Shown: positions 45,753-64,000 of the stretch, one piece after another
Layout of the letters: every line of letters begins with the position of its first letter
How positions within the stretch are numbered: position 1 is the first letter of the stretch
NCBI GenBank assembly: GCA_003221695.1
Contig: QHSX01000042.1
Location: forward strand, 62,001 to 126,000
DNA: 64,000 nucleotides
Reading direction: 5' to 3'
DNA from: Candidatus Rokuibacteriota bacterium
GTDB lineage: Bacteria; Methylomirabilota; Methylomirabilia; Rokubacteriales; CSP1-6
Program-made: the position numbers and the translations under genes
Notes under the pieces: generated by a model
The model's database searches: none
What the model saw: the letters and a program-made list of their open reading frames with translations, nothing else
What the model was told of the DNA's origin: nothing

Positions 45753-45840
45753 GTGGCGGTGCGAGCCGCAGCCGCCGGCGAGGCGAGTCTATGAATGTGG
45801 CGGTGCGAGCCGCAGCCGCCGGCGAGGCGAGTCTATGAAC
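45753..45840 (+). repeat. Two 44-bp leader-type repeat units ending on a start codon
   Basis: Units at 45753-45796 and 45797-45840 are identical except for the last base. Read from the ATG at 45791 they encode the 15-residue frame MNVAVRAAAAGEASL, whose TGA overlaps the next ATG (45835) as ATGA. That second ATG is the start of the ligase gene. The unit belongs to the family also found at 55857, 57985 and 62469. Confidence 0.8.
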
Positions 45841-55148: not shown

Positions 55149-55840
55149 GGAATGACGATGTGGTCGAATGCCTCCGCGTACGCGCAGCCCTTGGCCTGCC
55201 CGAGCTGTCGCGCGCGGTCCCGCACCCGCGCCTCCACGGCGGCAAAGTCCTTGAACTGGCTCGCGTGGCAGGCGAGCGCGCGGAGCTTCAGGTCCATCGT
55301 GTCGGAGACGTCGACGACGACCTGGGGATCCTGCCACTGCATCACGTACACCTCGCGGACCTTGTGGGGCTCGAAGGTGGGCATGAGCTCCGGGAACGCC
55401 ATGTGGTCGCGGGCGAGGGGATAGATGCAGTCGAGGGTGACGCCCCCGACGATCCGGTGGTCGCGGTGGGAGGCTCCCAGGAGGTACGTGCGGTGCGGGT
55501 TCTGGCAGACGACGAGGTCGGGACGCCACGCGCGGATCATGCGCGAGACGTCGCGCCGCAGGTCACGCGTGTCCTCGACCTCGCCGTCCGGGTAGCCGAG
55601 GAACTCCACCCGCTCGACGCCGAGCGTGCGCGCCGCGTTGCGCTGCTCCTCCTCGCGGATCCGGGCGAGCCGCTCCGGCGTCATCGACCGATCGCTCGAG
55701 CCCTTGTTTCCGTTGGTGACGATGACGTACGTGACCTCGCGGCCCTCCTTGACCATCTTCGCGACGGTGCCGCCCGCGCCGAACTCCGAGTCATCCGGGT
55801 GTGCGGTCACGACCATCACGCGCTCAATCTTGTCGGCCAT
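55145..55840 (-). CDS. PIG-L/LmbE-family N-acetylglucosaminyl-type deacetylase
   Basis: The 231-residue hydrolase has the zinc motif AHPDDSEFGAGG (13-24) and the third ligand in LLGASHRDHRIVGG. It would deacetylate an amino sugar or a conjugate, as in bacillithiol, mycothiol or lincomycin pathways; no such pathway genes lie near. GAGGAGG five bases before the ATG at 55840 is a strong ribosome site. Upstream, for about 430 bases, lies only an array of leader-like repeats oriented towards this gene. Confidence 0.92.
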   Translation of the reverse strand: MADKIERVMVVTAHPDDSEFGAGGTVAKMVKEGREVTYVIVTNGNKGSSDRSMTPERLARIREEEQRNAARTLGVERVEFLGYPDGEVEDTRDLRRDVSRMIRAWRPDLVVCQNPHRTYLLGASHRDHRIVGGVTLDCIYPLARDHMAFPELMPTFEPHKVREVYVMQWQDPQVVVDVSDTMDLKLRALACHASQFKDFAAVEARVRDRARQLGQAKGCAYAEAFDHIVIP

Positions 55841-55856: not shown

Positions 55857-56285
55857 TTCGGCTGCGGCTCGCACTGCCAGGTTCACAGACTCGCCTCGCC
55901 TTCGGCTGCGGCTCGCACTGCCACGTTCACAGACTCGCCTCGCGGCGCGCGTCGCCGAGCCTCCGCGGGCGCCGCTCGGCTCGCACTGCCAGGTTCACAG
56001 ACTCGCCTCGCGGCGCGCGTCGCCGAGCCTCCGCGGGCGCCGCTCGGCTCGCACTGCCAGGTTCACAGACTCGCCTCGCGGCGCGCGTCGCCGAGCCTCC
56101 GCAGCCGCCGCTCGGCTCGCACTGCCAGGTTCACAGACTCGCCTCGCCTCCGGCTGCGGCTCGCACTGCCAGGTTCACAGACTCGCCTCGCGGCGCGCGT
56201 CGCCGAGCCTCCGCGGGCGCCGCTCGGCTCGCACTGCCAGGTTCACAGACTCGCCTCGCCTCCGGCTGCGGCTCGCACTGCCACC
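55857..56285 (-). repeat. Tandem leader-type repeats, 44- and 68-bp units, facing the PIG-L gene
   Basis: GTGAAC (minus strand) begins at 56246, 56178, 56134, 56066, 55998, 55930 and 55886, with spacings of 68, 44, 68, 68, 68 and 44. Short units encode 15-codon frames (MNLAVRAAAEGEASL-like) and long ones 23-codon frames with eight extra codons. Every stop overlaps the next start as GTGA. A partial unit lies at 56247-56285. The last unit fades into the ribosome site of the PIG-L gene. This array accounts for most of the 512-bp gene-free stretch 55841-56352. Confidence 0.85.
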
Positions 56286-56352: not shown

Positions 56353-58026
56353 ATGCCCGAGACCGCCGCCGGTCGAGTAGGGGTCGTCGTCCTGCTCGTG
56401 CTCCTCGCCGCGGTGGTCGTCGTACCGCTGCTTCCCGGCGATCCCGGCGCGGTCCGGCTGGCGGGCGTCGCCGTGCTCTGGTGGTTCGCCGCGGGCGCCG
56501 CGCCGGTCGTCGCCACCCTGACGGCCTGTGCCCTGTTCAGGCCACGCGGGAGCGTTGCGGCCGCGCGCGCCAACCCGACCGCCTCCCTCCGCGCCGTCGC
56601 GACGTGGGCGTCGCCCGTTGTGCTCACTGCCGTCGCCGCCTGCGTGTTTGCCGGGGCGCCCGAGGCGCCCATCCTGGTCCTCACCGTGGCCGTTGCGCCG
56701 CTCCTCGCGCTGCTCGCCCCCTCCGCCGACCCCGCGCCGTCGCTCAACCGGGTCGCCGGGCTCGCCGCTGGGGCCGCCGTCGGGCTCGTGCTATGGGCGA
56801 ATCTCGGCGTAGTCGCCGACCTCGCGCGCCTCGCGGGCGTCCCGCGCCACGCGGCACTCACGCTCTCGGCCGCGGCCGCGTTCTTCGGCGTGGGGTGGCG
56901 CGCGGCGCGCCGACCCGGCGGTGCGGTCATCCTCGCCGGCCTGGTGGGCGTCGTGCTTCCCCTCGTCGTGATCGGCGCCACGGTCGCCATCCCACCATGG
57001 ACCGCGTGGAGCCGCACGGCCTCACGAGCCGCGCTCACCTTCGGCGAGGGAAGCGTCTGGGTCACCGACGGACGTCGCCTGGAGCGGTCGGCGACCCTCG
57101 TTTTCACCGAGCCCCACCGCGTCACCGCGCTGAGTCCCGGTACGTATCGGGTGATCGAAGAGGTCGTCGAGAGGGACGCGCCGCGGACCGTCACGCGTGA
57201 GTGGTACCTCGCGGCGGGGGACGCGCTCACGCTGCGTCCGGGCGACCGGCTGGTCCTCGAGGCGGGCACGCAGGTCCGCTTCGAGAGGGGCAAGCGCGTA
57301 CCCAACAGCGCCGCGTCGGGCGTCGCCTGGGCCGAGCCGTCCGAGCGGCGCTCGCTCGGCACGGCGGCCCACGCGCTGGGCGTCGTGCTGACACTCGTCG
57401 GCGGCAGCCTCGCCCTGCTCCCGCGGCCGCGCGGACTCACATGGCGCCGCACCGTTGCCGGGTCCGTGCTCCTCCCGGGGCTGACGCTCGCCGCGGTCTC
57501 CTGGGGCGCGTACGGTGTGTACGCCGCGCCGGAACTCGCCCTCGGCGCGGCGCCGGCGACCGGGCTCGTGGAGCTGTCCGCGCTGGTCCTCCCGGCGCCG
57601 GTGGGTGGCGCCCTCGTCGCGACGAGTATCTTCGCCCTGCTCCTCCTCTTCGTCGCGACGGCCCTGGCGCTGCGGGGGGTCATCGCGACGCACGCCAAGC
57701 CGGAGAACGCGGACATCGCCTGGGGCGGCCTCGTGGTGGTCGCCGCCGTCGCGGGGCTTTGGCCTGCAGACCCGTGGCGCACCTGGCTCGCCGGCTGTGG
57801 CCTCGCCGCCGCGGCGGTCGCCGCCCCGCGACTCGCCGGTGGGGACGCGCGCTCCAGCCTCGTGGGCTCGCTCGCCGGCGCCGCGGCGTTCGTCGGCCTC
57901 ACGGCCGTCGGTGACCGGCTGCCGGCCTGGGCCGGCTCCGTGGCTGCGTACCCCGCGCTCCTCGCGGCACCGCTGGCGTGGATGGCCGTGCGAGCCGAGA
58001 CCGTCCGACGGGCGAGGCGAGTCTGA
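56353..58026 (+). CDS. Multi-span membrane protein of unknown function
   Basis: The 557-residue protein has about six N-terminal hydrophobic segments (residues 10-215). A soluble beta-rich region of some 120 residues follows ([60 protein letters not shown]), and then at least six more spans. The composition is very rich in Ala, Val and Leu. I do not recognise the family. The last residues ([14 protein letters not shown]) are encoded by a copy of the leader-type repeat, which therefore forms the C-terminus. A TATAAT six bases before the ATG suggests a leaderless message. Confidence 0.75.
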
Positions 58027-58086
58027 GATGAGCGGGCCGTGCGAGCCGAGACCGTGCGACGGGCGAGGCGAGTCTGAGATGAGCCT
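57985..58086 (+). repeat. Two 51-bp variant repeat units overlapping the end of a gene
   Basis: Units at 57985-58035 and 58036-58086 share the GTGCGAGCCG and GGCGAGGCGAGTCTG blocks of the 44-bp family but differ in the middle. The first unit encodes the C-terminus and stop of the membrane protein. The clearest difference inside the coding part is GTC versus GTG, both Val. The remainder of the gap to uvrA holds a palindrome and a weak promoter. Confidence 0.7.
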
Positions 58087-58222: not shown

Positions 58223-61027
<2,805 letters not shown>

Positions 61028-61032
61028 GCGGC

Positions 61033-62466
61033 GTGCGGCGGACCAGGATCGTCTGTACCCTCGGTCCCGCCAGCCAGAGCCGCGCCGAGCTCGACCGCCT
61101 GGTCGCCGCGGGCATGGACGTCGCCCGCGTGAACTTCTCCCACGGCACCCACGCCGAGCACGCCGAGGTCATCCGGCTGGTCCGCGAGGGCGAGGCCCGC
61201 TGGGGCCGGCCGATCGCGATCCTTCAAGATTTGCAGGGGCCGAAGATCCGCCTCGGCACCTTCGGGCCCGCGGGCGGCGCGCGGGTCGACCTCGAGCCCG
61301 GCCAGTCGTTCGCGCTCTGCGCGAAGCCCGTGGTGGGCACCGCGGAGCGCGCGTCGCTGAACCACCCCGAGTACCTCGCGAACGTCAGCCCGGGCGACCA
61401 GATCTGGATGGACGACGGCATGATCCAGCTCCAGGTGGAAGAGGCATCGCCGGAGGAGGTGCGCTGCCGGGTCGTCGTGGGGGGGCGCATCAGCGATCAC
61501 AAGGGGATCTCGCTCCCGCATGTGCCGCTCCCGGTTTCGTGCCTCACCGACAAGGACCGCGAGGACCTCCGCTTCGGCCTCGAGCACGCCGTCGACTTCG
61601 TCGCCGTCTCGTTCGTACGATCGGCGGCCGACGTCGGGGAGGTGCGGGACTTCCTGCGCGAGCTCGGTGCCGACGTGCCGATCGTCGCCAAGCTCGAGCG
61701 CCACGAGGGCATCCTGAACCTCCCGGACATCCTGCCCTCGGTCGAGGCGGTCATGGTGGCGCGCGGCGACCTCGGTGTCGACGTGCCGCTCGAGGACGTG
61801 CCCCATCTGCAGAAGGAGATCGTCCGGCAGGCGCGGGAGGCGGGCGTGCCGGTCATCGTGGCGACGCAGATGCTCGAGTCAATGGTCACCCACCTCCGGC
61901 CGACGCGCGCGGAGGTCTCGGACGTCTCGACGGCCATCTTCGACGGCGCCGACGCGATCATGCTCTCCGCCGAGACGGCCACGGGCCGGTACCCGGCGGA
62001 GGCGGTCGAGGTGATGGCCCGCATTGCCGAACGGGCCGAGCGGGCCGTCCTCGTGGACGAGACGCGCCGGCGGCGCCAGGAGCGAGTCGGCGTCGGGTTC
62101 TCCGAGGCGATCTCCACCGCGGCCTCCGCGGCCGCGCACGCGCTCGGGGCGCGCGCGATCGTCGCGTTCACGGAATCGGGCGCCTCCGCGCGCCTCATCT
62201 CCCAGGCACGTCCGGACGTGCCGATCATCGCGCTGACGCCGTTCGTCGAGGTCCAGCGGCGGCTCGCCCTGTGGTGGGGCGTGTCCTCGCGGCTCATCCG
62301 CAAGGTTCAGACGACCGACGAGATGATCGAGGAGGTCGAGGCGACGCTCCTTGGCGACGGGGCGGTCGGGCCTGGCGACGTCCTCGTCATCATCTCCGGC
62401 TCGCCCATGTGGGTGTCGGGAACGACGAACCTCCTGAAGCTCCACCGCGTGGGCGAGCGTCGCTGA
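61033..62466 (+). CDS. pyk: Pyruvate kinase
   Basis: The 477-residue enzyme makes pyruvate and ATP from phosphoenolpyruvate. Visible are RTRIVCTLGPASQSRAEL, GMDVARVNFSHGTH, ILQDLQGPKIRLG, the active-site block VPIVAKLERHEGILNLPDIL, MVARGDLGVDVP, ATQMLESMV and SAETATGRYP. The B domain and the C-terminal regulatory domain (ARAIVAFTESGASARLISQA) are both present. It starts on a GTG five bases after the uvrA stop. The leader-type repeat array begins two bases after its own stop. Confidence 0.95.
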   Translation: MRRTRIVCTLGPASQSRAELDRLVAAGMDVARVNFSHGTHAEHAEVIRLVREGEARWGRPIAILQDLQGPKIRLGTFGPAGGARVDLEPGQSFALCAKPVVGTAERASLNHPEYLANVSPGDQIWMDDGMIQLQVEEASPEEVRCRVVVGGRISDHKGISLPHVPLPVSCLTDKDREDLRFGLEHAVDFVAVSFVRSAADVGEVRDFLRELGADVPIVAKLERHEGILNLPDILPSVEAVMVARGDLGVDVPLEDVPHLQKEIVRQAREAGVPVIVATQMLESMVTHLRPTRAEVSDVSTAIFDGADAIMLSAETATGRYPAEAVEVMARIAERAERAVLVDETRRRRQERVGVGFSEAISTAASAAAHALGARAIVAFTESGASARLISQARPDVPIIALTPFVEVQRRLALWWGVSSRLIRKVQTTDEMIEEVEATLLGDGAVGPGDVLVIISGSPMWVSGTTNLLKLHRVGERR

Positions 62467-62468
62467 GG

Positions 62469-62776
62469 GTGGCGGTGCGAGCCGCAGCCGGAGGCGAGGC
62501 GAGTCTGTGAACGTGGCGGTGCGAGCCGCAGCCGGAGGCGAGGCGAGCCTGTGAACGTGGCGGTGCGAGCCGCGGCCGGAGGCGAGGCGAGCCTGTGAAC
62601 GTGGCGGTGCGAGCCGCGGCCGGAGGCGAGGCGAGCCTGTGAACGTGGCGGTGCGAGCCGCAGCCGGAGGCGAGGCGAGTCTGTGAACGTGGCGGTGCGA
62701 GCCGCAGCCGGAGGCGAGGCGAGTCTGTGAACGTGGCGGTGCGAGCCGCAGCCGGAGGCGAGGCGAGCCTGTGAAT
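62469..62776 (+). repeat. Seven tandem 44-bp leader-type repeat units
   Basis: Units begin at 62469, 62513, 62557, 62601, 62645, 62689 and 62733, exactly 44 bp apart with no spacers. From each GTGAAC the frame reads MNVAVRAAAGGEASL and ends in a TGA that overlaps the next GTG as GTGA. Differences between units are GCA/GCG, AGT/AGC and AAC/AAT, all synonymous in this frame. The last GTG (62771) is the start of the sensor gene. The array accounts for the 304 bases between pyk and that gene. Confidence 0.88.
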
Positions 62777-64000
62777 GCGGCCGTGCAGCGCCCGGGCCTC
62801 GCACGCGTCGCCCCGGTGCTCGTGGGACTCCTGGTGGTCTGGGTGGCGGGCGGGCTCTGGCTCGCGCGGCGCGGGGCGGAGCGGCACGAGGTCGTCGTGG
62901 CCGACACGGTCGCCGCCGTCCGCGCGCTCGTCGACGCCGCCGCGCGTGAGCTGCGCCGCGAGGCCGCGCTGCTCGCCAAGGATCCGGCCATCGTGGAGGG
63001 CGCGCTCAAGCACGACTGGGCGACGCTGGCGCGCGGCGCCTCGCCGAGGATGCTCGCGCTCACGCTGGAGCGGGTCGCCGACCTCCTCTGTGTCGTGGAC
63101 GCGACCGGCGCGCTGCTCGTCCAGGTGCCGGCGACGCCGCGGGTGGAGGGCCTTGCCCTTCCGCGGCCCGCCGAGGCCGTCACGCGTGTCGCCGTCGTGA
63201 ACAACCGCGCCTATCTCGTGGGGCTGGCGCCGCTGCCTGCCGGGATGGTCGTGGTCGGCCGACGCGTCGAGTCGCTCGCGCGGGTTCTCGACGGGCTGCC
63301 GTCACGACCCGCCGTGGTGGTGCTGGTGGAGGACCTGGCCGTCGGCGGGACGCTGCCCGGCGTGCCGCCGCGGGGCTGGCGGGACGCGGCGCGTGGTCGA
63401 CGCGTCACGGTCGACGGCCAGTCGTGGCTCGCGCGGCCGCTCGACGACACGGCGGGCGAGAGTCTCTGGGCGCTGGTCCCCGAGGGGGCCCGGCGCGTCG
63501 CGGAGCGACGGTTCTGGTTCGCCTGGGCGCTCTCGCTCGTCGCCGCGACGGGCGTCGCGCTGGTCGCGGGCGCTGTTGTCGCGCGCACGGCGCGAGCCGA
63601 GCCCGCGTGGCCGAGTCGGGCCGTCGGCGCGGGGGCCGCGGAGTCGGCGAGTGTCGGAGCGGGGGCCGGGTGGTCGGCGCCCACCATGGGTGGCCCGACA
63701 AAGGAGCGGGATGGCTCCGACACGCTCGAGGCGCTCCGCGCCGTCGCGGTCGCGACGGGCAACGGTGACGATCTCGTGGCCACCGCCGAGCGCACGCTCG
63801 AGGTCGTCTGCGGCGTCGCGCGGACGGCGTTTGGCGGCCTCTTCCGGCTCGACCCCGTGTCGCAGACGCTCGTGCTCGTCGCCCACCGAGGCTTCTCGCC
63901 CGAGGACGTCGCCGTGCTGCGCGTGCGCCCGCTCGACGCGAGCCACGTCGGCGAGGCGGTGCGCGCGGGTCACCTCATCCTGACCGACCTGACGCGGTCG
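62771..64000 (+). CDS. Membrane sensor with GAF domain, cut by the window end
   Basis: The visible 410 residues are open to the window edge. A membrane span at about 14-32 (APVLVGLLVVWVAGGLWLA), an extracytoplasmic sensor region to about 247 and a second span at about 249-271 are followed by a linker. A GAF domain begins near 320 (TLEVVCGVARTAFGGLFRLD, LVLVAHRGFSPEDV). A kinase, guanylate cyclase or GGDEF output would be expected beyond the window. The GTG start is in the last repeat unit, and the first residues (MNAAVQRP) resemble the repeat peptide MNVAVRAA, as if the gene start came from an extra, decayed unit. Confidence 0.8.
   Translation, partial: MNAAVQRPGLARVAPVLVGLLVVWVAGGLWLARRGAERHEVVVADTVAAVRALVDAAARELRREAALLAKDPAIVEGALKHDWATLARGASPRMLALTLERVADLLCVVDATGALLVQVPATPRVEGLALPRPAEAVTRVAVVNNRAYLVGLAPLPAGMVVVGRRVESLARVLDGLPSRPAVVVLVEDLAVGGTLPGVPPRGWRDAARGRRVTVDGQSWLARPLDDTAGESLWALVPEGARRVAERRFWFAWALSLVAATGVALVAGAVVARTARAEPAWPSRAVGAGAAESASVGAGAGWSAPTMGGPTKERDGSDTLEALRAVAVATGNGDDLVATAERTLEVVCGVARTAFGGLFRLDPVSQTLVLVAHRGFSPEDVAVLRVRPLDASHVGEAVRAGHLILTDLTRS

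Follow-up and report, generated by a model that had tools for sequence, protein, structure and literature searches.

A dispersed palindromic repeat of Rokubacteria with a phased stop/start overlap at operon junctions

Results

Arrays of chained mini-ORFs in the window

Within the window, the whole 64,000-nucleotide stretch of Rokubacteria DNA that we analysed, a forward-strand pyruvate kinase gene (pyk, 61033–62466; Pfam PF00224, E 2.9e-111, and PF02887) terminates in a TGA at 62464–62466 and is followed on the same strand by a gene that starts with GTG at 62771 and continues beyond the window edge at 64000. The gap between the pyk stop and this gene is occupied by a 44-bp array, which Tandem Repeats Finder places at 62469–62786 with 7.2 copies and a 97% match. 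An earlier note on this DNA had described a chain of seven 44-bp units joined by stop/start overlaps, and our reading of the sequence confirms it: seven chained mini-ORFs span 62469–62774 on the forward strand, and the TGA of each overlaps the next GTG. Mini-ORF 1 (62469–62510), which encodes VAVRAAAGGEASL, opens at a GTG 2 nt past the pyk stop and closes with a TGA at 62508–62510. It has 13 codons, so the 15 codons per unit claimed in that note hold for units 2–7 and not for the first. Mini-ORFs 2 (62507–62554, with a GTGA overlap at both ends), 3 (62551–62598), 4 (62595–62642), 5 (62639–62686), 6 (62683–62730), and 7 (62727–62774) each encode VNVAVRAAAGGEASL in 15 codons. The last TGA in the chain (62772–62774) overlaps the start codon of the downstream gene (62771–62773), and the 3′ arm of the last unit (62760–62770, GAGGCGAGCCT) supplies a Shine-Dalgarno-like GAGG with a 7-nt spacer to that start.

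The downstream gene has no Pfam match in the part that lies inside the window (its first 409 residues), and its orthologues in the relatives G002 and G003 comprise 2234–2394 codons. It has a membrane segment near the N-terminus and numerous recurring sensor-like stretches; 30-bp imperfect repeats at 63613–63679 encode a GSVGAGS-like linker past the second membrane segment.

Three further arrays lie in the window, which contains 14 matches to the pattern GTGCGAGCCGN{0,25}GGCGAGYCT compared to 0.00 in 100 shuffles, a count that is not due to chance. The same organization had been claimed for positions 45753 and 55857. It is borne out at the former, where a forward-strand array (45753–45839) consists of two 44-bp units whose mini-ORFs (45753–45794 and 45791–45838) are connected by ATGA joints and end in an ATGA at the start (45835) of an AMP-binding enzyme gene. 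At the latter, the claim stands in part. The reverse-strand array at 55857–56283 belongs to the same family and has frame-keeping spacings, with mixed 44- and 68-bp units, each 2 modulo 3, but the final unit is incomplete and the PIG-L-family gene that it precedes has an ATG at 55840 with its own GAGGAGG. This array sits between divergent genes and, because the neighboring gene is divergent, no upstream gene could feed it. The fourth array (57984–58084, forward strand) comprises two 51-bp units of the same repeat family that do not keep phase and do not abut a start codon, the nearby uvrA start being at 58223; its units instead form the last codons and stop of the ORF at 56353–58026. Since the orthologous site in G002 lacks these units, the repeat probably replaced the C-terminus of the encoded protein, as judged from this sequence comparison. 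The G001 orthologue of the 45753 junction (near position 17000 of L153) carries one related copy in the opposite orientation beside the gene's own ATG; a copy so oriented cannot act as a relay for ribosomes.

The arrays belong to a dispersed repeat family

To our knowledge, Rokubacteria are an abundant soil lineage with no described repeat biology. We searched the window's own genome (G000; 4.6 Mb in 109 contigs) and other assemblies for the repeat. A covariance model derived from 17 hairpin-rich copies yields 103 matches in the own genome, detects the repeat in 49 of the 57 genomes of the same family, and has no match in any of the 20 genomes searched outside that Rokubacteria family. Counts of the 17-mer GCGAGGCGAGYCTRTGA are 72 in the own genome and 65 in G001, against none for the reversed control in either; 31 of 195 genomes carry it, all of one taxonomic family. 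The array therefore belongs to a dispersed repeat family that is confined, as far as searched, to one family of Rokubacteria. Among GTDB contigs the exact pattern matches 19 from Rokuibacteriota and one from outside; the latter (L036, labelled Phycisphaerales) has the searched pattern only, without GAGGCGAG or the remaining arms, and was taken as a chance match.

We gathered copies from 1.21 Mb of own-genome sequence and a further 0.74 Mb from relatives. The own-genome statistics refer to 20-kb pieces, most of them picked because they hold copies, and gene starts were called with a simple, purpose-written gene finder. The repeats sit mainly at the junction between the stop of one gene and the start of the next.

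Fixed arms flank an interchangeable hairpin

Each copy follows the layout RTGGYM-GTRCGA-GCC-(GCA or GA)-variable hairpin-GA-GGC-GAGYCT-RTGA, in which fixed GCGA-GCC and GGC-GAGYC arms flank an interchangeable hairpin to form a palindromic core. The 3′ side of the core contains GAGG, a Shine-Dalgarno match, followed after 7 nt by the RTGA stop/start overlap. The earlier note's statement that there is no conserved palindrome is thus incorrect, since a variable hairpin enclosed by fixed arms is present in every copy. The hairpin takes the form GCC-GNA-GGC in the 44-bp units; elsewhere we find GGCCGT-NCG-ACGGCC, GGACG...CGTCC with a GGGGC/GCCCC stem, and a 36-nt GCGGCG...CGCCGC. In the 17 aligned copies, three apical pairs vary on both sides, and 87% of cells are paired versus 24–40% for slid partners. 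The 3′ arm, GAGG included, is paired in the hairpin predicted for the longer variants. The 44-nt unit itself folds no better than its own shuffles (z about +0.4 to −0.5), whether as RNA or as DNA, so folding energy was dropped as evidence of structure in favor of the comparative evidence, and the hairpin of this commonest unit is suggested by its longer relatives. Thirteen distinct copies are nested, with one type located within the loop of another, as expected of something that inserts.

Rfam covariance models have no match in the window at gathering score (the best, on the array, has E 0.71), and a known RNA family was ruled out accordingly. We rejected a function of the peptide as the central idea, since the GNA loop places its variable base at a second codon position, where the residue changes freely among G, A, E, and V.

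A second subfamily, GTGCGAAGCC (GTGCGAAGCCGCAG-palindrome-CGAGGCGAGCCTG), has a 28-nt core and is mostly antisense to its flanking genes and out of phase (for example L093 at G000:C6:54831, L078 at C15:130281, and L102 at C52:94510). It may act at 3′ ends.

Orientation and reading frame are kept at gene starts

In 74 of 80 arrays, main-type copies have the orientation of the gene that follows (p 5e-16). RTGA is present in 125 of the 138 copies that precede a co-directional start, and 117 of their 138 mini-ORFs end exactly at it, compared to 2 of 20 for copies in the opposite orientation; counted per array, an in-frame end at RTGA is found in 53/70 versus 1/13 (Fisher p 5e-6). The distance from the 5′ to the 3′ core is 0 modulo 3 in 121 of the 138 copies (58 of 72 distinct cores), even though it ranges from 15 to 60 nt. 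Among tandem spacings, 51 of 60 (array, length) cases are 2 modulo 3. Many distinct copies are related by descent, so these large counts are not independent, and the cautious test is the one that counts each spacing length once, in which 10 of 15 are 2 modulo 3 (p 0.0085). Unit spacings of 32, 41, 44, 50, 53, 56, 65, 68, 74, and 110 share this phase; viewing the family as a 44-bp repeat, as the earlier note did, was therefore too narrow.

The 2-modulo-3 period also extends beyond the species from which the rule was found. At 20 held-out loci from other species of the family, 20 of 22 near-start co-directional copies are in frame with their stop at RTGA, versus none of the four copies located elsewhere; these loci were picked with a pattern that contains RTGA, which partly selects for the position of the stop and leaves frame and orientation unselected. 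That note had set against its own proposal the prospect of copies scattered in random orientation and phase relative to genes. What we observe instead is a unit that recurs genome-wide in the orientation of the downstream gene and often abuts its start codon (exactly at the called start in 25 of 70 near-start arrays); copies with no start downstream of them are for the most part out of phase.

We also asked how many arrays provide an unbroken chain of frames from an entry start to the gene start. Such a chain exists in 51 of 70 arrays, compared to 28 and 26 of 70 when one base per unit is removed or added, respectively. Inserting one base in the last unit only leaves 40 of 70 still 'reaching' the gene start, a figure that probably arises largely because the shift fuses the mini-ORF to the gene. 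A version of the test that allowed entry from the upstream gene's stop only gave 33 of 54 versus 14 and 8 of 54; it was replaced with the version that accepts any in-frame start because the old gene start is the entry point at several loci. Exceptions comprise 17 of the 70 near-start arrays, in which at least one unit is out of phase, and 19 of 70 that lack a complete chain. At L189 (G051:C69:6573-6863), units of 69, 73, and 74 bp include roughly 20 nt from the start of the downstream gene itself; here phase is mixed, and the frames end at a TAA located 8 nt beyond the next ATG.

Insertion into formerly empty, tight junctions

Orthologous junctions were compared in three species of the same genus. 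Where a junction is empty it is tight, with genes that often overlap, and where it is filled the local stop/start is repeated. The pyk junction has no array in G002 and G003 (CGCTGA-8 nt-GTGCG), seven units in the own genome, and, in G001, three units on one contig (L154, G001:C23) and two on another (L153, G001:C288). At G000:C6:51321 and C14:27917, the 4-nt ATGA gene overlaps of G002/G003 are replaced in the filled state by an RTGA on both sides of the units. The empty hisH junction of G001 (orthologous to C101:75783) reads TGAGCCCATGATCGCC and has a single ATGATCG; in the own genome GTGATCG stands ahead of the units and GTGATCGCC comes after them, so that the array has the start region on either side. 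In the lpd case (C66), the first mini-ORF begins at the former ATGGCC start, and GTGAAAGTCGAC is where the gene now restarts. RTGGTA or ATGGCS occurs once in the empty relative and on both sides of the insertion at C28:70057 and C14:58266. Flanking duplications are clear at the pyk junction, C101:75783, C28:70057, and C14:58266, and are absent or ambiguous at C91:81632 and C10:115196.

The linkers between units are local in origin. They match the start of the local downstream gene with an identity of 0.62 versus 0.38 for shuffled loci (positions 5–10; 0 of 5000 shuffles reach this value), which indicates that a tandem unit consists of the repeat plus the local start and that each mini-peptide takes its first residues from the gene. 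The MNVAV stretch, likewise, is similar to the opening codons of the downstream gene at the site and does not belong to the repeat. Linkers inside one array are nearly identical to each other and like the adjacent gene; with no unique spacers present, CRISPR was rejected, and the earlier note's exclusion of CRISPR for want of spacers is borne out.

Some junctions are occupied in several species. An mlaE/mlaF-like (permease/ATPase) junction is filled in seven (G000, G001, G002, G003, G007, G020, and G051; loci L166, L233, L234, L255, L175, L188, and G000:C14:35866) with differing hairpin types and linkers, and the hisH start is occupied repeatedly (G000, G014, and G041). The mlaE/mlaF-like and hisH names derive from sequence motifs rather than profile searches.

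Discussion

A repeat that may preserve translational coupling

Reinitiation after termination requires a stop and a start that overlap or almost touch, and in published reporter work it depends strongly on distance: it is nearly lost at about 20 nt, and a separation of 38 nt costs 80–100% in three E. coli gene pairs (PMC10666635). An insert of 40–300 bp should consequently uncouple two genes unless it is itself translated and left by a similar joint. In our best reading, to which we assign a probability of roughly 0.6, the Rokubacteria element is an interspersed palindromic repeat across which translational coupling is preserved by termination-reinitiation. Having settled mainly in operon stop/start junctions, each copy would function as a portable stop-and-restart cassette. 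An open frame would enter it from the junction start codon or, at a small number of loci, directly from the upstream gene, cross the hairpin, and stop at a TGA overlapped by a fresh start codon that has GAGG 7 nt ahead of it. As insertion would repeat the local junction sequence, the downstream gene would retain its start and first codons. Tandem arrays would then be copies of the repeat plus local junction, along which a ribosome could pass, by termination-reinitiation, from each unit to the next as far as the gene. In the longer variants, a ribosome arriving from upstream would open the paired GAGG arm, the classical setting for coupling. The sequences themselves establish the layout, orientation, and reading frame of the copies, their insertion into tight junctions that were once empty, and the local source of the linkers. 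We infer that ribosomes travel the chain, that selection for coupling keeps the frame, and by what route the repeat moves. On the simplest view, the repeat spreads and is kept where coupling stays unbroken. The broader proposition of a self-propagating DNA repeat that is transparent to translation, with its own frame, stop, Shine-Dalgarno sequence, and phased restart, and that piles up in operon junctions, we regard as evenly poised.

Several features of the repeat could also be accommodated without a relay. It might simply deliver a ready-made ribosome-binding site, with de novo initiation at the last unit and mini-ORFs as a by-product. The GAGG positioned 7 nt before RTG in every unit, the arrays that abut a called start exactly (25 of 70), and the 55857–56283 array, which lies in a divergent region with no same-strand upstream gene, are all consistent with this. 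It leaves unexplained, however, the phase of core lengths and tandem spacings and the TGA in RTGA, and free initiation would be hindered where the GAGG arm is paired in the predicted hairpin of the longer variants; we therefore consider it unlikely. Somewhat less likely still is a purely selfish palindrome that inserts into RTGG sequences, which are frequent at start codons, with founder lengths that happened to be multiples of three and a phase that was inherited. Of 62 distinct near-start flanks, 48 do have RTGG ahead of the first unit, RTGGTA/ATGGCS is duplicated around the C28:70057 and C14:58266 insertions, and the hairpin classes are few enough for phase to be a founder effect. Against this, length classes and linkers (9, 12, or 15 nt) differ by threes far beyond expectation, copies away from starts are mostly out of phase, and the pattern is repeated in held-out species.

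A protein-binding RNA, to which conserved arms with an exchangeable loop would be suited, has a precedent in the forward preference and tandem sets of TAACTGA-like repeats just upstream of starts (PMC4679880). It offers no role for the phase rule, has no candidate protein, and would have to serve unrelated downstream genes, and we consider it very improbable. Retention of coupling by termination-reinitiation remains the reading that we prefer.

Relation to known systems

Mobile bypassing elements of yeast mitochondria are short, GC-rich hairpin inserts that are tolerated because the ribosome skips them; unlike these, the Rokubacteria insert would be translated, with a stop and a restart. Rickettsia palindromic elements are inserted in frame into coding sequences. 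Whereas they add a peptide within one protein, the Rokubacteria insert ends one frame and restarts the next. The joint between its units is the same as that of ATGA- or GTGA-overlap gene pairs coupled by termination-reinitiation (PMC6728339, PMC10666635), but in those pairs it connects two genes, and here it is built into a dispersed repeat, with as many as seven in succession. The TAACTGA heptamers of Beggiatoaceae are forward tandem repeats that mostly end beside a start codon and contain stop codons in their forward reading, and for which a post-transcriptional role has been proposed (PMC4679880). The Rokubacteria repeat similarly forms forward tandem units that end at a start codon. The heptamers differ in having a 7-nt unit, no hairpin, and rarely a ribosome-binding site, compared to units of 32–110 nt with GAGG, a stop/start overlap, and a phase kept modulo 3.

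REP/BIME elements share a number of properties with the Rokubacteria repeat: both are short, imperfect palindromes present in tens to hundreds of copies, mostly intergenic with some inside genes, single or tandem, and species-restricted (PMC3733652). The Rokubacteria repeat is distinguished from them by its fixed orientation to the next start, its kept frame, and its RTGA end, and it has no constant GTAG or CGTC end tag; the tetranucleotide whose last base is the G of GTRCG has the form GYMG, in which Y and M vary and GTAG is one of several forms. The RAYT/IS200 transposase (Y1_Tnp, PF01797) has no match in the own genome, with control genomes positive. It is found in 11 of the 57 family genomes and in none of the three richest in copies (G000, G001, and G020), and was rejected as the driver since PF01797 shows no link with copy number over these 57 genomes. 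In the openly licensed PMC literature that we searched, we found no description of a dispersed repeat with a phased stop/restart joint, nor of such repeats in Rokubacteria.

The phased stop/restart design may let insertions spread through operons without breaking them. If the relay is true, it would represent a third way to tolerate operon insertions, besides splicing (introns, inteins) and ribosome bypassing, and would offer a natural series of as many as seven reinitiation joints, a direct test of how many restarts a bacterial ribosome can manage before it falls off. A regulatory use of unit number is possible: the variation at the pyk junction among relatives (7, 3, 2, and 0 units) could tune operon expression ratios. 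The two versions of this junction in G001 have different cores, pointing to either a strain mixture or recent unit turnover.
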